From Planctomycetota bacterium (lineage in GTDB: Bacteria; Planctomycetota; JAJSAM01), in contig JAJSAM010000071.1 in the NCBI GenBank assembly GCA_024274785.1, forward strand, positions 1 to 64,000: 64,000 nt of DNA, read 5' to 3'. The position numbers and the translations under genes are program-made. Positions 40,206-49,053 of this stretch are shown here, one piece after another. Under the pieces are notes generated by a model, which had not been told where the DNA came from, did no database searches, and saw only the letters and a program-made list of their open reading frames with translations. Position 1 is the stretch's first letter. Each line of letters starts with the position of its first letter.

Positions 40206-40682
40206 CTAGAAGCCCAGCACGTCATCCAGCGCAGTCTGCGCGGAAGAGGAGAAGTCTTCGCTGATCTCCTCGTCCGCTTCACGTGGCTTATCCGAGTTCT
40301 TCGCCTCCGTGAATACTTCTTCCAGCCTTCTGGCGGTTTCGCTCGCATAGAGGCGGACCATTCCGATCGTCGTCGCCTCATCGAAGATCACCGTCAACAA
40401 CGTGCGGTCTCCGATCAGAGAGAGCTGAATGTTGTCGCGGAGCCCCTGGTGGAACATGACCGAGAACTCTTCCTCACCAAGAACCCGGGCCATTTCCTTC
40501 GTGGCGGCGAACGAGCCCGCCACCAACGCGGAGATGGTGTCCGAGTCGAACGATTGCGTGCTTCCGCGCTTGGTGATCATGTGACCGCCCTTGTCCACGA
40601 GAAGCGCAGCACGGGCATTCGAGAGCCTGAGGAACTCCGACAGGATGTTGTCGATGACCGCCATGTCGTCCCGGTAGAACAC
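40206..40682 (-). CDS. Roadblock/LC7 protein, partner of the MglA-like GTPase
   Basis: 158 residues. The roadblock fold covers residues 1-115: AVIDNILSEFLRLSNARAAL, LVDKGGHMITKRG, and ALVAGSFAATKEMARVLGEE. An acidic tail of about 35 residues follows. This resembles MglB-type proteins that act on MglA GTPases. Start taken at the GTG (40682). The same frame is open back to the GTPase stop codon at 40758, with no ATG in between, so the exact start is uncertain (a CTG or readthrough are options). Last gene of the GTPase cluster. Confidence 0.8.
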   Translation of the reverse strand: MFYRDDMAVIDNILSEFLRLSNARAALLVDKGGHMITKRGSTQSFDSDTISALVAGSFAATKEMARVLGEEEFSVMFHQGLRDNIQLSLIGDRTLLTVIFDEATTIGMVRLYASETARRLEEVFTEAKNSDKPREADEEISEDFSSSAQTALDDVLGF

Positions 40683-40757
40683 CAGGCGATTCTCACGGAT
40701 AGAGGCATCGTCGCGCAGGAGGGGCTTTTCATCAGCCTGGTTGTTTTGGCGTTCATT

Positions 40758-41924
40758 TCAGAGCACCCCGAACGAATTGAGGATGAGGCCGAGGGCGCCG
40801 AAGACGACGATGCCCAAGGCGACCAGTGTGAGTATCTTGCCCCGGTTGTTACCGATGGACGCATTCTGGAGCAGCACTTTGCCGGTGCGCTTCGCAGGTG
40901 CGCTGATCCTCGGCACCTGGTGCTTCTTCCCGGCGTTCTTCTTCTTCTTCTTCTTCTTCTTTTGCTGCGGTGATGCGTACTTCCTTCTTGCGGGCACCTG
41001 GGCAACCGATGGGCCCGCATCGGGAACCTGCCCGGCAGCTCTTGCCGGAGGGGCATCCGATGGGGGGGCACACTCGCCTCGTGAGGGCACGGCGGCCCGG
41101 GATGGGGCACCTTGGTTCGGCATCCCGCCCTGCTGCTGCGGCGGCGATGCGGGCGGAGGCCCAGCAGGAGCCACCCGGGGAGCCGGAGCCACCTGGGCGG
41201 CCGGTGCCACCTGGGGAGCCGGTGCCACCTGGGGAGCCGGTGCCACCTGGGGAGCCGGTGCCACCTGGGGAGCCGGTGCCACCGAAGCGGCTGCAACTGG
41301 TGCCTCTGCCTTGGCTACCGGCCTGGCACTCGTCGCGGTCCGCTGCTTGCTCAGGTTCTCGAGCACCAGCGAGGACAGCGCCTTCAATGTGGGGAAGACC
41401 CCCTCCCCGGTATTGGCAACCGCCTCGAAGGTCGGCAGGCCGCGGGGATTGAGTTTCCGGTTCAGGGTTTCAATGTCGAGGGCTCCCGGGAGATCGCGCT
41501 TGTTGAACTGGATCAGCATGGGGAGCTGTTCGAGCACCTTTCCGGCCTCGAGCAGGTTGTTTCGCAGGTTCTCCAGGGACTCCAGGTTCTCCTCGAGCTT
41601 GTCGGCCTGGGAGTCCGCCACAAAGATGATCCCGTCGACTCCCTGCAACACGAGCTTGCGGGTCGAGTTGTAGTAGACCTGGCCCGGCACGGTGTACAGC
41701 TGGAACTTCGTCCTCATCCCCGCGATGTTTCCCAGATCGAGGGGCATGTAGTCGAAGAACAACGTCCGATCACCCTCCGTCGCGATCGACGTCAGCTCAC
41801 CCTTGTTGGACTCCGGAGCTTTGAGATGCACCACCTCGATGTTCGTGGTCTTGCCGCTCAAGCCAGGACCGTAGTAGACGATCTTGCAGTTCACTTCACG
41901 GAGGGCGAAGTTGATCTGAACCAT
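40758..41924 (-). CDS. MglA-like small GTPase with repeat linker, lysine run and C-terminal membrane helix
   Basis: 388 residues, twice the usual MglA length (about 195). Residues 1-195 are the GTPase: P-loop GPGLSGKTT (19-27), G3 TVPGQVYYN (78-86), GIIFVADSQ, and NKRD (141-144). Residues 213-255 are a VAPAPQ repeat encoded by an 18-bp tandem repeat. Then comes a Pro/Gly-rich region, eight lysines (322-329, encoded by a TTC-type microsatellite on the plus strand) and a hydrophobic helix (363-383, ILTLVALGIVVFGALGLIL). The tail would tether the enzyme to the membrane. 26 bp after a roadblock gene and followed by another. Confidence 0.85.
   Translation of the reverse strand: MVQINFALREVNCKIVYYGPGLSGKTTNIEVVHLKAPESNKGELTSIATEGDRTLFFDYMPLDLGNIAGMRTKFQLYTVPGQVYYNSTRKLVLQGVDGIIFVADSQADKLEENLESLENLRNNLLEAGKVLEQLPMLIQFNKRDLPGALDIETLNRKLNPRGLPTFEAVANTGEGVFPTLKALSSLVLENLSKQRTATSARPVAKAEAPVAAASVAPAPQVAPAPQVAPAPQVAPAPQVAPAAQVAPAPRVAPAGPPPASPPQQQGGMPNQGAPSRAAVPSRGECAPPSDAPPARAAGQVPDAGPSVAQVPARRKYASPQQKKKKKKKKNAGKKHQVPRISAPAKRTGKVLLQNASIGNNRGKILTLVALGIVVFGALGLILNSFGVL
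41167..41283. repeat. 18-bp tandem repeat coding for the GTPase linker
   Basis: Four perfect units of GGTGCCACCTGGGGAGCC (41203-41274), two degenerate units before (41167-41202) and a half unit after. On the minus strand each unit encodes six residues of the APAPQV type. The near-identity of the units implies recent expansion or contraction. Confidence 0.9.
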
Positions 41925-41950
41925 GCCTCAGCCCTTTCCATCCAATGACT

Positions 41951-42307
41951 TCATGCGATGTGTATCTCCCCGAGAGCGCCGATCCGGCGCGCCGTACTGC
42001 GAATCTCGAGTTCTGCCTGTCCGAGATCGATGCCTCGGTCCATCACAACCACGAGGTATGCTTCCCCGGTGGCTTCGAAAACCATCTCGCCGTCGGATGA
42101 CGTGAGGCTCAGCCGTGAAAAGGGGCCGAGTCCCCGGTCAGCGAGGGCGCGGCCGGTGCGCAACACCACGTTCGAGGCCATGGCCGCAACCCGGTCCTGA
42201 TCGAGGCTTCCGCTCAGCCGGGAAGAGATGACCATGCCGTCCCGACTCACCACCAGCGAACCGCTGATGCCGATGAGCTCGTTCAGGTCTTCGAGTACGC
42301 TTTGCAT
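41951..42307 (-). CDS. Roadblock/LC7 protein (minimal domain)
   Basis: 118 residues. SVLEDLNELIGISGSLVVSR, DGMVISSRL and a C-terminal helix form a complete small roadblock domain. The ATG at 42307 lies 2 nt after the stop of the TPR-roadblock gene, whose end supplies the GGAGGGA ribosome binding site. The frame is open 54 codons further upstream only inside that gene. 26 bp before the GTPase gene. Predicted to form homo- or heterodimers with the other roadblock proteins and to bind the GTPase. Confidence 0.78.
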   Translation of the reverse strand: MQSVLEDLNELIGISGSLVVSRDGMVISSRLSGSLDQDRVAAMASNVVLRTGRALADRGLGPFSRLSLTSSDGEMVFEATGEAYLVVVMDRGIDLGQAELEIRSTARRIGALGEIHIA

Positions 42308-42309
42308 GC

Positions 42310-43467
42310 CTATCCCTCCCCCTCCGCAGAGAGACTTCGGGCGGCAAACTCGCCGACCAATCGTCGCGCGGGACCGACCTTGAGGGGACGACCGAAGCTT
42401 GCGGCCAGTGCCACCCCCTTCAGTTGGTTGACTGTTATTCCCCCGAAATCGCCCTCGATCGTGCACCAATCGAGGGCGCCGAATTCCATCTTCCGCGTTG
42501 CGTCTGAGGCGGTGTCCAGTATCTCGGCGGCCAGGGCAGCGAACTCTTCACAGGAGAGCTGGCTCGTGCCGCCGGCCATGTTCACCGGCCGTCCGTCGGG
42601 CCCGAGTGCCATGACGTTCGTGATTCCCTGGTGGCTCGCCAACTCGATCACGGTGTCGGAAATGCGCGCCTTGTCGATATGCGCTTCCGTGCAGATGCAA
42701 CTGCTGGGATCGGTGAGTGCGCTCAGTGGGAATCTGCCGGGGTGATGGACGAACCTCCTGTTCGCCTCGGCCGCTCGGCAACGCTCAGCAGTGGATGGCC
42801 CCGGTGTCGATGAGGGATCCTCTTCCGCGGGAACCTCCATCGCCGTGCGGAAGATCATCAGGTCCTCGTAATCAGGTGAGAGCCTGCGGATCTCAGCCAG
42901 CTCGGCGTCGAAGTGATCCAGTGCGCCGATGGCGTAGTAGAGCTGGGCCAGGATCAGGCGCGCTTTCAGGTTCTGTGCGTTGAGCCGGAGCGCTCTTCGG
43001 AGCAGTGCTTCGCCCTCGATGCCGTCGTTGGCGAGGATATGCTGGAAGAACTTCTCTGCGTGTACCTCGCCGGCCACGAGGTAGGGCTTCTCATTCAGCG
43101 GATAGCGGCTGGCACATTCATCACAGATCGCGAGGGTCCGCTCGTGATCTCCGAGTTCAAGATAGCAATGGGCCAGGCTGTTGAAAACCGCCGGGGCGGG
43201 GTGCGTGGCCGCCTGTTTCTTCAGGCGGGAGATCTCGCCCTTCAGCCCGTCCTTGCGGAGGTATGTGCTGATGGATGCCAACCGTTCCGAACTCGGGAAC
43301 AAGGCGAGTCCGCGCTTGGCGATCCTGCTGGCGTCGCGAATCTTGCCGAGCGATATGTACCGCTCCGCAAGGTCGGCGAAGGCCGCCGGCGTGGGGGCGC
43401 GTTTGACCGCTCCCCTCAAACGATGCAGGTCGCTCATCTTTCTCAGCTTTTCAAGTACACTCGTCAC
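42310..43467 (-). CDS. TPR protein with C-terminal roadblock domain
   Basis: 385 residues. TPR-like repeats span about residues 25-215 (AFADLAERYISLGKIRDASR, VFNSLAHCYLELGDHERTLA, LKARLILAQLYYAIGALDHF). After a variable linker, residues from about 265 to 380 form a roadblock domain (ARISDTVIELASHQGITNVM, EFGALDWCTIEGDFGGITVN). Start at GTG 43467; an ATG at 43437 is an alternative. First of the small-protein genes that lead into the GTPase; 82 bp after the 1107-residue protein's stop. Confidence 0.75.
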   Translation of the reverse strand: MTSVLEKLRKMSDLHRLRGAVKRAPTPAAFADLAERYISLGKIRDASRIAKRGLALFPSSERLASISTYLRKDGLKGEISRLKKQAATHPAPAVFNSLAHCYLELGDHERTLAICDECASRYPLNEKPYLVAGEVHAEKFFQHILANDGIEGEALLRRALRLNAQNLKARLILAQLYYAIGALDHFDAELAEIRRLSPDYEDLMIFRTAMEVPAEEDPSSTPGPSTAERCRAAEANRRFVHHPGRFPLSALTDPSSCICTEAHIDKARISDTVIELASHQGITNVMALGPDGRPVNMAGGTSQLSCEEFAALAAEILDTASDATRKMEFGALDWCTIEGDFGGITVNQLKGVALAASFGRPLKVGPARRLVGEFAARSLSAEGEG

Positions 43468-43549
43468 GAGTTCGTTCCGTTCCTGTGTTGTCCGATGGTT
43501 CCCTATCGACCATTCGGTGCATCGGGATAAAGCTGTTCCCGTGCGCCAC

Positions 43550-46500
43550 TCACTTCCTCAACACGAAAATCTGACCATCTTCTGAAGCAACCAGGATCCG
43601 GTCGCCCACGGCGGTTGCCGGGACGAGGATCCGATTCACATCCTCACCGAGTTCCAATCGCCACACCATGTGGAAACGATCGTCCTTGAAGTCCATGGCG
43701 GTCAGCAATCCGTCGTCACCGGCAAAGAACAGGCGGTTTCCTGAGTGAGCGGGCGCGGTCCTCAAGGGCCTCTTCAACTCGAAGGAGTCCACCATCGCTC
43801 CGTCGCGGAGGGCGTAAACCCGACCATTGGAGGTGGCGACGATGACCATTCGTCCAAAGCTCGTGGGGGTGGTCTTGATCTCCGCCCCGGTGGCGTAGTT
43901 CCAGAGTTCCCGTCCGCTTTCGAGGTCGAATGCGTGAACGGTTCCGGTGGTGCTCACGAGGTGGAGTCTGGACCCGCTGATGCTGGGGCCGCCGAGGATG
44001 GAGCCCGCGGCACCGCGAGGCATCACGTCGAACTCCTTTCGTCCCCGGGCAACGCTCAACCCATAGCAGTGGCCATCCTCACCCGTCACGTACACGCGTC
44101 CCTGGTGAACGACCGGATCTCCCCTTACCTCAGCCGGGAGCAAGGTCTGCCAGGCCTGTTTGCCGGTGACGGCGTCAAACGCGGTCACCCGGCGGGAGTC
44201 GTCGCAGACAATCACGAACTCGCCCGCGAGGACCACCCGTCGGTACACCGAACCGGGGACGCGCTTCGACCACGTCGGCAGGCGGGTCGCCAGGGAGATG
44301 CGCTGCACGCTTCCCTCGATCGTCGCCAGGTAGAGGTGGCCGTCGCGGACCGCCACCCCTGCCGCGATGCCGCTCAGGCTGTCCGCCCGGTACACCTCCT
44401 CGATGGCCCGCTGCTTCGGCTTGATCCGGTAGACCAGACTGCTGCGAGTGGCGAGGAACACGTGGTCCCCACTCACGGCCGGCAAACCCTCCACCGAGCC
44501 TTCGATCCCCTCCTGCCAATCGACCTCCTTCACCAGATCCACGACGATCTCTTCCTGCTCGGAGAGACGCAGGATCTCGGTCTCCCGTTGTTTCAGGTCG
44601 AGCCGCAGGACGGTTTTTCCGCTGCGGGCGAACCCGGAGTGGCGCAACTCGACAATCGCATCGGCTCCCGGGCGCCAGCGGATCCAGGACGGAGTCAACT
44701 TCCCGGTCGTCATTCCGTTCACGTGGATCTCCGCGCCGGCCGGCCAGGAATTCACCCGAAGAGGGACCCGGACGCGGTCGAGCACCTCCCGGAGGTAGTA
44801 ATCCCGGATGAGGGCGATCGCGATTTCTCGCGCATCTCCGAACCGGCCGTCGTCGAAGAGGTTGTCCATCTCCCGTATCCGGTCCGCCACCACAGTCAGG
44901 CTCTTCTTCAACTCCTCGATCTTCTGGGGAACATTCAGGTTCTGCAGGGGAGTGTGATCGATCGCCATGTCGGTGGCCCGCTGGTACTTGATCAGTGCCG
45001 CGCTCGGTTCGCCCTGCATGAGCAGTTTTTCGGCGTCGCCCACCAGTCTCACGCTGCATTCCTGGATCTCATCTCTGGCTGCGGCGACGGAACTCTCGAA
45101 CCTCTCCTTCAGAACATTGAGCTCTTCCTGCTTCCGGACCGAGTCCTTGTAGGCGGAGGTGTATCTGAACTTCTCCGCGACAGTCATCAACTCCTTGATG
45201 TCCTGGTCGATCTGAACACTGAACCGATCGAGCAGCGCTTCCGCTTCCCGGTAGGTGGCGACCAGGCTCACCACGTTCAGGTCGCCCTTGCTGAGCTCAT
45301 CCTGCAGTTGTGACAACCTGGCGCTGGCTTGGGCGATGTTCTTCGACATTTCGGCCAAAGCCTTGCCGGCGCGCTTCTCCTCCGCGGCGAGGGTCGCCTT
45401 GCCATCGAGTTCATAGGTGATGTAGGCGTAGCCGAATCCGCCGAGGACCAGGCAGACCAGGAACGCGATGGCGACCCGCTTCAGCCCCCTGCTCTTGTGC
45501 TCCTGGCGGGTCAGCAGGTGCTCCAGCCGCTGCCTCACATCCGCACGTGAACGATCGATGACGAGGATCTTCCGGAGGAGATTCGTCACCTGCGGCCAGT
45601 CCTTGCGCTGGGAATACCAGTCGACCATGGTCTGGTATTCGGCGACCGCTTCCACGGACATCTTGCCGGACAGGTAGACGCTCACCAGCAGGTGGCGCAG
45701 CGCGAATTCCTCCGGCGCCAGGCCGATGGCACGCTGAAGAACCTCGATGGCCTGTTCGGTCCGAGCGAGTTCCAGGCAGATTCCGGCGACCACTCTGGCG
45801 CGCTCGACGATCTCTTCAGTGCAATCTTCCAGGTCCCGCTGGTTCTCCGTGTAGATCCGGATCAGGCGGTCCGATGCCGCGAGATCGGTGGGGAGCATCG
45901 TTACGATCTTGCGACTGATGTCAAACGCTTCCTGGGCGTTTCCCGCGGCGAGATTCTGGTCCGTCAGGCGGCGATAAAGGTCGGCCGCGGCCTTGAATTC
46001 TCCGGCGCCTTCGTACGCCGCGGCCAGCGCGAGCTGCTGATCGGGGCTCTCGGCGCCGACTTCGGCAACACGCTCGAGAAACCTGATTCCCTGCTCGACG
46101 TCCCCACGCTCCAGCGCTGCCGTTCCCTCCCGCATGAGCTCGTCCGCGGGGAGGGGCTCCACCGCGCCGGCATCGACGAGAAGCGCCAGGATCTTCAGCA
46201 CCTCGAACTTGCTGACGTACGAGGAATCGATGATCTTCTCGATGTCGCTCCGGCCGTCAATTGCCGCCAGCACCCGGTCGCACCACGGTTCCTCGAAGAT
46301 GGGGTCCGTCAGGTCCATGTTGCGGCCGGTGTAGCGGAAGACCACACGCACGGAATCGACGCGACTCTGGATCATCTCCGACTCGTCGATCCGACGGGCG
46401 GCCTCCATGATCAGGCTGTTCACGTTGAAGGTCAGCCGGGAAAGATCCCCTTCGGCCGGGCCGCGATGATCAGTCGGGGCACCTTCAATGAACTCGAAGC

Positions 46501-46873
46501 TGGCATCCTTCCAGATGAAGAGATTGTAGATCTCCTCCTCGATTTCGAGCCGGAGAGCGTCCTGAATGACCTCTCGGGGCACCATCGCGGTCTCTTCCAG
46601 TACCGCCCAGAGAGGCTTGTTGTCCTGCTCCTGGAGGTTCCTGGCAGACTGGAGGTCCTCTTCCGTGATGCGCTGGAATCGCAGCAGGATTCGGCCGAGG
46701 GAATCCGAATCCGCAGAGCCTCGGGACAGCATGGAAACGCCGTCCTTCGAGAAGTAGATCGACTTGCGCGTATCGCCGTCGAAGATGTTCAGCGTGCCTT
46801 CCTTCCTATTGATGGAAAGCATCTGAAACACGTTCGCCAGATCTACGCTGTTGAGGTTGCCTTTGAGGGCCAT
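43550..46873 (-). CDS. DUF4388-TPR-TM-coiled coil-PEGA-beta-propeller protein
   Basis: 1107 residues. Residues 1-130 are a DUF4388/PATAN-like domain (LKGNLNSVDLANVFQMLS, NRKEGTLNIF). A DUF4388-linked winged-helix-like segment follows to about 240, then TPRs at 245-450. A membrane helix at about 466-487 (VAIAFLVCLVLGGFGYAYIT) separates these from a coiled-coil region (490-690), a PEGA domain (702-770, SWPAGAEIHVNGMTTGKLTP) and a PQQ-like beta-propeller (775-1107, DAVTGKQAWQTLL, DLESGRELWNYATG). So the N-terminal half is cytoplasmic and the propeller probably periplasmic. GAGGAG precedes the ATG. No kinase domain is present. Confidence 0.82.
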   Translation of the reverse strand: MALKGNLNSVDLANVFQMLSINRKEGTLNIFDGDTRKSIYFSKDGVSMLSRGSADSDSLGRILLRFQRITEEDLQSARNLQEQDNKPLWAVLEETAMVPREVIQDALRLEIEEEIYNLFIWKDASFEFIEGAPTDHRGPAEGDLSRLTFNVNSLIMEAARRIDESEMIQSRVDSVRVVFRYTGRNMDLTDPIFEEPWCDRVLAAIDGRSDIEKIIDSSYVSKFEVLKILALLVDAGAVEPLPADELMREGTAALERGDVEQGIRFLERVAEVGAESPDQQLALAAAYEGAGEFKAAADLYRRLTDQNLAAGNAQEAFDISRKIVTMLPTDLAASDRLIRIYTENQRDLEDCTEEIVERARVVAGICLELARTEQAIEVLQRAIGLAPEEFALRHLLVSVYLSGKMSVEAVAEYQTMVDWYSQRKDWPQVTNLLRKILVIDRSRADVRQRLEHLLTRQEHKSRGLKRVAIAFLVCLVLGGFGYAYITYELDGKATLAAEEKRAGKALAEMSKNIAQASARLSQLQDELSKGDLNVVSLVATYREAEALLDRFSVQIDQDIKELMTVAEKFRYTSAYKDSVRKQEELNVLKERFESSVAAARDEIQECSVRLVGDAEKLLMQGEPSAALIKYQRATDMAIDHTPLQNLNVPQKIEELKKSLTVVADRIREMDNLFDDGRFGDAREIAIALIRDYYLREVLDRVRVPLRVNSWPAGAEIHVNGMTTGKLTPSWIRWRPGADAIVELRHSGFARSGKTVLRLDLKQRETEILRLSEQEEIVVDLVKEVDWQEGIEGSVEGLPAVSGDHVFLATRSSLVYRIKPKQRAIEEVYRADSLSGIAAGVAVRDGHLYLATIEGSVQRISLATRLPTWSKRVPGSVYRRVVLAGEFVIVCDDSRRVTAFDAVTGKQAWQTLLPAEVRGDPVVHQGRVYVTGEDGHCYGLSVARGRKEFDVMPRGAAGSILGGPSISGSRLHLVSTTGTVHAFDLESGRELWNYATGAEIKTTPTSFGRMVIVATSNGRVYALRDGAMVDSFELKRPLRTAPAHSGNRLFFAGDDGLLTAMDFKDDRFHMVWRLELGEDVNRILVPATAVGDRILVASEDGQIFVLRK

Positions 46874-47697: not shown

Positions 47698-49053
47698 ATG
47701 TGTGAGGGAAAGTCCGAGCAGAACCCCGACCGGGATCCGGATGGGAATCACGGCGGGGACCACGATGCCACAGAAACCGGCTGCTTCCGGCCCGGCGATA
47801 CCTTCGCCGGGTTCCTGACCGGGGACCGGGAGCGCGACCGGCGTAACGTGGACATTCTGCTGGACACGATCGCCGAGGTGAATCGCACCCGCGACCTCGA
47901 GACGCTGCTGGTCTCGGTGGTCGACCGCACTCTCCGGTTCACGATGGCCGAGCGCGGCATCCTGATGCTCTACGATTTCGCGGGCAAGCTCCACATCCAC
48001 GTGGCTCGCGACAACTGCGGCAACTTCCTCGACCACCATCTCGACTACAGCCGGCCCGTTCCGAACCAGGTCCTCGAGGACGGCAAGGCGGTCTGCATGA
48101 CCTCTACCGCCAGCGAGAACCGGATCTCCCTGACCCAGTCCAGCCAGCACCTCGGCCTGCTCACGGTGATGTGCGCTCCCCTCTCGGTCCAGGGCCGCGT
48201 CATCGGCGTCCTCTACGTGGACAGTTCGGCCCGCTCCCGCAAGTTCACCGACGGGGATTTCAGCCTCTTCAAGGCCCTCTCCTACCAGTTGGCCATCGCG
48301 ATCGAGAATGCCCGCATGGCCAGGAAAGAGAGCGGTCTCTCGCTCGCTCGCGATCTGCAGCGCAGCCTGATGCCGACGGAAGCCGTCGCTCTGCCCGGAT
48401 TCGACATCCATGGCCTCTCCCGGATGTGCGACGAGGTCGGCGGTGACTATTTCGACTACATCCGGCACAAGGAGGGGCGGCTCGGCCTGGTCGTCGGGGA
48501 CGTTTCCGGGCACGGATTCGTCGCCGCCCTGCTCATGGCCACCGGGCGGGCGCTCCTTCGGGCCTACGCTTCGACCGAATCGGACCCGGCGCGCGTGGTG
48601 ACCCTCCTGAACCGCGAACTCGCCCGGGACCTGGCGACGGACCAGTTCATGACGATCTTCTACGGAGACCTCGATCTTGAGCGGCGATCGATCCGTTACG
48701 CCACGGCGGGGCACTGTGATCCGATCCTGCTTCGCGGAACCTCGGGTAATATCGAGACCCTCGCCGGTCGTGGGATGGGGCTCGGCTTCGACCGGAACTA
48801 CACCTACTCGGACTTCGGGCCGGTCAGCCTTCGAAAGGGCGACGTTCTCCTGATCTACACCGACGGCATCCCCGAAGCTCGCAACCCCCAGGGTGGCTTC
48901 TTCGGCATGGAACGGGTCCACGAGATCCTGGCCGAGCGGCACGACACCGCCCGGGCTCTCGTGGAGCAACTCGTCAGCGAGGTTTCGGAGTTCTCAGGGG
49001 GAACCGGCTACGCGGACGATCTGACCGTGATCGCCGTGCGCGTCACGGAGTGA
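47698..49053 (+). CDS. GAF-SpoIIE (RsbU-type) serine phosphatase
   Basis: 451 residues. An acidic N-terminal stretch, a GAF domain at about 55-215 (DLETLLVSVVDRTLRFTMAE, APLSVQGRVIGVLYVD), then a PP2C-type SpoIIE domain (225-450) with GGDYFDYI, VVGDVSGHGFVAALLMATG, TAGHCDPIL and GYADDLTVIAV, which keep the metal-binding aspartates. Such phosphatases dephosphorylate STAS anti-anti-sigma proteins; no STAS or anti-sigma gene is in the window. Next to the GTPase/roadblock cluster, which suggests a shared signalling role. Cytoplasmic. Confidence 0.88.
   Translation: MCEGKSEQNPDRDPDGNHGGDHDATETGCFRPGDTFAGFLTGDRERDRRNVDILLDTIAEVNRTRDLETLLVSVVDRTLRFTMAERGILMLYDFAGKLHIHVARDNCGNFLDHHLDYSRPVPNQVLEDGKAVCMTSTASENRISLTQSSQHLGLLTVMCAPLSVQGRVIGVLYVDSSARSRKFTDGDFSLFKALSYQLAIAIENARMARKESGLSLARDLQRSLMPTEAVALPGFDIHGLSRMCDEVGGDYFDYIRHKEGRLGLVVGDVSGHGFVAALLMATGRALLRAYASTESDPARVVTLLNRELARDLATDQFMTIFYGDLDLERRSIRYATAGHCDPILLRGTSGNIETLAGRGMGLGFDRNYTYSDFGPVSLRKGDVLLIYTDGIPEARNPQGGFFGMERVHEILAERHDTARALVEQLVSEVSEFSGGTGYADDLTVIAVRVTE

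Follow-up and report, generated by a model that had tools for sequence, protein, structure and literature searches.

A probable membrane-tethered Mgl switch with three roadblock proteins and a receptor-like membrane protein in Planctomycetota

Introduction

MglA is known as a soluble GTPase switch that depends on partners for its position in the cell. A five-gene cluster from a Planctomycetota bacterium raises the question of how such a switch may work when it is encoded together with three roadblock proteins and a large membrane protein. The cluster occupies positions 40206-46873 of the window, the stretch of 64,000 nucleotides analysed here (assembly GCA_024274785.1, contig JAJSAM010000071.1, positions 1 to 64,000). 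It belongs to a 4.5-Mb Planctomycetota metagenome-assembled genome (MAG), and the close relatives found are also Planctomycetota MAGs. Five co-directional open reading frames (ORFs) lie on the minus strand in the order D-T-R2-G-R1: a receptor-like membrane protein (D), a protein with tetratricopeptide repeats (TPRs) and a roadblock domain (T), a stand-alone roadblock (R2), an MglA GTPase (G) and an MglB-type roadblock (R1). The intergenic gaps of 82, 2, 26 and 75 nt are tight and operon-like, and scans for sigma-70 promoters and terminators stayed at chance level, which is evidence in neither direction. An earlier note on this DNA had described five consecutive minus-strand genes of these types; all five ORFs and their domain types were recovered, with the PEGA match remaining below threshold. 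The locus probably encodes a membrane-tethered Mgl switch together with its GTPase-activating protein (GAP), a pair of additional roadblocks as adaptors, and a receptor or effector that crosses the membrane, a system possibly steering type IV pili.

A Group 1 MglA with its own membrane anchor

G (40758..41924, minus strand) carries an Arf/Gtr1-type GTPase domain in Pfam. Over residues 3-193 it aligns to Myxococcus xanthus MglA (PDB 5ymx) without gaps (E 4e-73), showing that the bacterial MglA insertion between G1 and G2 is present. Group 1 MglA proteins are recognized by an Arg finger directly beside the conserved Thr of G2, by TVPGQ at G3, [NT]KxD at G4 and a P-loop of the form GxxxxGK[T/S] (PMC4316618). 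G and 80 homologues all have DRT (the Arg finger with the Thr of G2), TVPGQ and NKRD (81/81), and the P-loop reads GKTT in all 81. By these sequence motifs, G is a canonical Group 1 MglA.

Beyond the GTPase domain, G continues through an Ala/Pro-rich linker and a basic stretch into a single hydrophobic helix just short of its end, predicted to span the membrane at residues 364-382 (40779..40835, minus strand; Kyte-Doolittle mean 2.81). The earlier note did not mention this helix. It is present in 63 of the 64 G homologues with a complete ORF, the one exception (L109) being a paralogue without the locus neighbours. Solved MglA chains among the PDB matches have about 195-203 residues, and a Deinococcus MglA, encoded in the order mglB-mglA with one roadblock, has about 206, leaving no room for a tail like that of G. 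MglA is usually a single small GTPase domain without membrane anchor, a trait that is not strictly defining (PMC4316618), and G departs from it here.

Several variants of the GTPase were also observed. In one clade, a long Pro/Ala-rich extension follows the transmembrane helix (L104, L105, L107, L108, L112). At one locus (L088:6829-8676), G, its helix and R1 share one stop-free frame; if the helix were inserted, R1 would face the periplasm, so that an assembly error or a recent fusion is possible. In addition, the window genome contains two further MglA domains, which form the N-termini of MglA-GAF-histidine-kinase fusions (L114:4627-6807, G000:C42; L115:4994-7330, G000:C18). In the L115 domain, Lys replaces the Arg finger (GDKTLFFDF).

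Three distinct roadblock proteins

In the whole 4.5-Mb genome, the search for Robl_LC7 domains found just three, those of R1, R2 and T. R1 (40206..40682, minus strand) matches Robl_LC7 (Pfam, E 8.7e-12) and, in a PDB sequence search, the structure of M. xanthus MglB (E 6e-26). It falls in a clade with the MglB proteins of M. xanthus and Thermus thermophilus (support 100/99). Its score for the NCBIfam equivalog NF052242, whose name suggests the Thermus type, is below the cut-off (98.6 vs 200 bits). The start of R1 is uncertain, as homology seems to run a few codons upstream of GTG 40682. From this homology, we infer that R1 is an MglB and the predicted GAP for G.

R2 (41951..42307, minus strand) is a roadblock of the Asgard RB/CvnB type. 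It matches Robl_LC7 (E 9.5e-12), and its most likely start is ATG 42307, which is preceded by GGAGG and lies 2 nt past the stop of T. Its PDB matches include 7yh1, a roadblock from Asgard archaea (E 4.5e-11), as well as CvnB5 and a weak match to LAMTOR4; the tree places it towards Asgard RB and CvnB5 with moderate support (84/82).

T (42310..43467, minus strand) combines a TPR array with a weak Robl_LC7 match (E 3.8e-4), which scored 20.6 bits in hmmscan, below the cut-off of 23, and 23.6 bits in the genome search. A roadblock domain had been proposed earlier for all three proteins, and Pfam bears this out for R1 and R2; for T it gives a weak match, and the fold supplies the support. The AlphaFold model of T (mean predicted local distance difference test, pLDDT, 91.5) places an alpha-beta-beta-alpha-beta-beta-beta-alpha topology at residues 266-380 (42328..42672, minus strand). 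With Foldseek, this domain reaches template-modelling scores of 0.83-0.84 against Asgard roadblocks and of about 0.75-0.82 against MglB. As modelled, the C-terminal domain of T is a roadblock by fold.

T forms a third group in the tree, separate from R1 and R2. The branches of T and R2 are long and neither protein comes out as one clade, so that only the grouping of R1 with MglB is firm. R2 and T are, as far as the sequences tell, roadblock lineages distinct from R1. No MglC-named chain was among the PDB sequence matches of R2 or T, and the tree was built without MglC.

A membrane protein joining PATAN, TPR and propeller domains

D (43550..46873, minus strand) is a receptor-like protein of 1107 residues, and nearly all of its 57 homologues are about 1030-1130 residues long. 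It starts with a PATAN/DUF4388 domain at residues 4-165 (46379..46864; E 5.8e-19, 68.7 bits against a cut-off of 25). A TPR array, found by Pfam and visible as helical hairpins in the model, follows at residues ~241-458 (45500..46153). Hydropathy places a single transmembrane helix, with an Arg-rich N side, at residues 467-485 (45419..45475). Residues 701-1107 (43553..44773) are predicted to form a periplasmic PEGA-like beta domain and a BamB-like propeller (PQQ_2, E 5e-33), and the architecture noted earlier also includes a coiled coil between the transmembrane segment and the PEGA-like domain. The PEGA match of D itself is sub-threshold (16.3 vs 20.8 bits), and a D-like protein encoded at another place in this genome has a PEGA match that exceeds the cut-off. 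The AlphaFold model (pLDDT 89.4) is confident except in the transmembrane region (<50), and the C-terminal propeller is nearest to BamB (Foldseek E 1e-21).

The transmembrane segment exceeds the hydropathy threshold at the same position in 49/57 homologues, and the positive side lies N-terminal to it in 49 of 51. From this charge distribution, the PATAN domain and TPRs are predicted to be cytoplasmic, and the PEGA-like domain and propeller periplasmic.

Two observations concern PATAN domains in this genome. The helical insert in the PATAN domain of D (residues 59-107) weakly matches NCBIfam NF053729 (E 2e-4, below cut-off), an MshE-related motif that binds cyclic di-GMP, and kinship of the insert with the N-domains of PilB/MshE is possible. 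A 250-residue FHA-DUF4388 protein (L122:7137-7886, G000:C20) suggests phospho-dependent PATAN signalling.

Conservation and co-inheritance across the phylum

The earlier note had suggested looking for the same gene order in related genomes, and D-T-R2-G-R1 does recur across the phylum. In 51/58 loci with enough flank, G has precisely two roadblocks on its upstream side and one on its downstream side, and T and R2 accompany G at nearly every locus. D stands beside G in 55 of 66 loci, upstream in 53 and downstream in 2; D downstream of R1 was seen in three loci (L104, L107, L112), which belong to the clade with the extended G tails. It had been proposed that a GTPase kept without these neighbours would speak against a common system. 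At nearly all loci, G has kept T, R2 and R1 as neighbours, and D is the part that is sometimes missing.

At the genome level, MglA orthologues and Robl_LC7 were compared in 196 genomes. Both were present in 95 and both absent in 90, with 11 discordant (concordant 185/196; Fisher p 1e-41, not corrected for phylogeny). The distance trees of G, R1, PATAN and T correlate, as expected for co-inheritance. Mean Kimura distances are 0.26 for G and 0.37 for R1, by far the slowest-evolving, and 1.3-3.0 for the other parts, the propeller of D diverging fastest. A conserved switch core (G and R1) with a diversifying adaptor and receptor side is suggested.

Further conserved neighbours were considered as parts of the system and rejected. 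Clusters of flanking ORFs were of housekeeping type, the best of them occurring in 21/80 loci; by eye, the recurrent ones resemble methionyl-tRNA synthetase (MetRS), glycine-cleavage proteins, lipoate ligase and acyl-CoA dehydrogenase. In the window, a gene for a GAF-SpoIIE phosphatase (47698-49053, Pfam) lies in the divergently transcribed neighbourhood, and it is not among the recurrent neighbours in relatives.

Proposed mechanism and its output

In the arrangement that we favour, the five proteins would make up a GTPase switch of the Mgl type that is complete in itself and sits on the inner membrane. The GTPase domain of G would be tethered via its flexible linker and C-terminal helix; held by this tail, the switch would act at the membrane in both nucleotide states, with no cycling on and off. 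R1, the conserved MglB, would act as GAP on G. R2 and T probably provide a scaffold or exchange platform, the TPRs of T coupling the GTPase to D. With one membrane pass, D would join the periplasmic BamB-like propeller to the cytoplasmic TPR and PATAN domains and so serve as receptor, effector or both. Binding of R2, T and D to G is predicted.

Local control of type IV pili would be the likeliest output, although we put it forward tentatively, as a possibility rather than an expectation. PATAN domains of Synechocystis are cited as binding the extension ATPase PilB (in PMC10519157 and PMC9090330). In Myxococcus, MglA-GTP acts on PilB by way of SgmX, a TPR protein that binds MglA-GTP and determines where PilB is localised (PMC7519303). 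Moreover, co-occurrence of PATAN proteins with SgmX has been described (PMC11580455), and Group 1 mglA sometimes has PATAN genes nearby (PMC4316618). Within the phylum, genomes with MglA have 4.28 PilT-family matches vs 2.75 in those without, and family-level means are 4.41 vs 3.26 (p 2e-6), with at most 5 matches counted per genome. In the window genome, about 9 kb separate the gene of a PATAN protein (L118) from a pilT-like gene, a weak link to pili. FlhA is lacking in the window genome (G000) and in the searched relatives of its order, and flagellar output is therefore unlikely here. Many MglA-bearing clades also have flagella, so that the motility type is not fixed.

Several observations weigh against this picture, and they concern both the pilus link and the unity of the module. 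No pilus genes are located at the locus. PilT is near-universal in the phylum (384/392), and its presence is thus uninformative on the pilus link. Phylogeny and genome size confound the difference in its copy number, which is not seen in most families mixing genomes with and without MglA; copy number is therefore suggestive only. As to the module, D was not found beside G in 11/66 loci, including those of strains Pla163 and Pla86, which makes D an associated, not an obligatory, part. The signal-transducing GTPase module with a membrane-spanning link envisaged in the earlier note fits the topology and the conservation, although with D as a dispensable member. In mirror-tree analysis of co-evolution, specific pairing was absent after control for G and R1. 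Lastly, the window genome encodes two D-like proteins away from any GTPase, one DUF4388-TPR-propeller and one DUF4388-PEGA-propeller (L120:5346-9122, G000:C12; L118:9294-12413, G000:C18). The genome-wide MglA search puts no GTPase beside either of them, indicating that proteins with this receptor-type architecture make up a small separate family.

Alternatively, the GTPase may steer a process other than pili, such as envelope or outer-membrane biogenesis, polar growth or division, with a structural propeller and D as an envelope anchor instead of a receptor. The best Foldseek matches of the D C-terminus to BamB, the rapid divergence of the propeller and the variable motility type of MglA-bearing clades are in keeping with this idea. 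Nevertheless, BamB-like folds are generic PQQ-type propellers and no partner of the beta-barrel assembly machinery (BAM) is found at the locus, while published work ties PATAN and MglA to type IV pili (PMC10519157, PMC7519303). Such a role is considered rather unlikely.

It is also conceivable that D holds an R2-T roadblock heterodimer at the membrane as an exchange platform that loads the permanently anchored MglA, with the MglB GAP working against it; a periplasmic signal would in this way set the local state of the GTPase. The locus would then be a functional analogue of the eukaryotic Ragulator-Rag system. This logic appears doubtful to us: three distinct roadblock groups in the tree, the Asgard and weak LAMTOR4 relatives of R2, and the superposition of the T roadblock on Asgard, MglB and LAMTOR folds speak for it, but co-evolution of R2 and T is no greater than shared ancestry gives, and the locus has a single GTPase, no GTPase heterodimer and no identified p18-like wrap. 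To our knowledge, no bacterial transmembrane receptor has been described that is directly wired to a Ras-like GTPase and roadblocks without a kinase or chemosensory array. If this doubtful reading were true, D would be the first.

Finally, a plain MglA/MglB polarity pair as in Myxococcus or Thermus, with functionally unrelated neighbours and the tail as a minor localisation feature, is quite improbable, since T and R2 are kept far more often than the best other neighbour cluster and the tail is near-universal, even though the slow evolution of G and R1 and the dispensability of D in some clades would suit it.

Comparison with known systems and significance

Known Mgl systems had been described in the earlier note as MglA plus one roadblock, which is too strong. 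Systems with two coupled MglBs per MglA exist (PMC4316618), M. xanthus has MglC besides MglB (PMC7949163), and its RomY stimulates MglB (PMC9481161); extra roadblocks alone are hence not new. The module studied here shares its G motifs and a cognate MglB clade with the systems of Myxococcus (MglA/MglB, with MglC, RomY, RomR-RomX and SgmX) and Thermus (mglBA), and Myxococcus also has an additional roadblock (MglC) and a TPR effector (SgmX). It differs from both in its tail-anchored MglA, in the gene order mglA-mglB, and in uniting three roadblock groups and a transmembrane PATAN/TPR/propeller protein in one operon. The five-gene assembly may best be classed as a variant Mgl system, with G assigned to the Group 1 MglA proteins and R1 to the MglB proteins.

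The actinobacterial conservons (CvnABCD) are likewise operons of a GTPase, a roadblock and a membrane sensor, and R2 resembles CvnB5. Whereas conservons have a Group 2 GTPase (GTPGQ) and one roadblock, a Group 1 GTPase (TVPGQ, Arg finger) and three roadblocks are found here. Membership in this group was rejected, given TVPGQ at G3 and, by Pfam, no histidine-kinase CvnA and no CvnC among the five genes. Like Ragulator-Rag and the Asgard roadblocks, the locus places several roadblocks close to a small membrane-bound GTPase, and R2 and T resemble those roadblocks in sequence, fold or both. It differs in the single MglA-type GTPase on its own tail and in having no LAMTOR1-like wrap, and roadblock heterodimers are only proposed. 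Cyanobacterial PATAN regulators of the PixE/PatA type share the PATAN/DUF4388 domain and have a receiver domain, whereas D joins PATAN to TPRs, a transmembrane helix and a periplasmic propeller.

In the literature covered, which holds few subscription papers, no publication was found on MglA with roadblocks in Planctomycetes, nor on DUF4388 with roadblocks, and no earlier description of the five-gene arrangement, or of three roadblock lineages in one operon, was met. Planctomycetes are not mentioned in the main text of PMC4316618 (text search), and the publications found that name both Planctomycetes and MglA were taken, by title and abstract, to be unrelated.

A phylum-wide MglA that has its own anchor and shares an operon with its GAP, further roadblocks and a transmembrane protein offers a compact, testable system. 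It bears on how bacterial Ras-like GTPases receive signals from the envelope and on the purpose of multiple roadblocks. It also bears on the history of the roadblock scaffolds common to Asgard archaea and eukaryotes.

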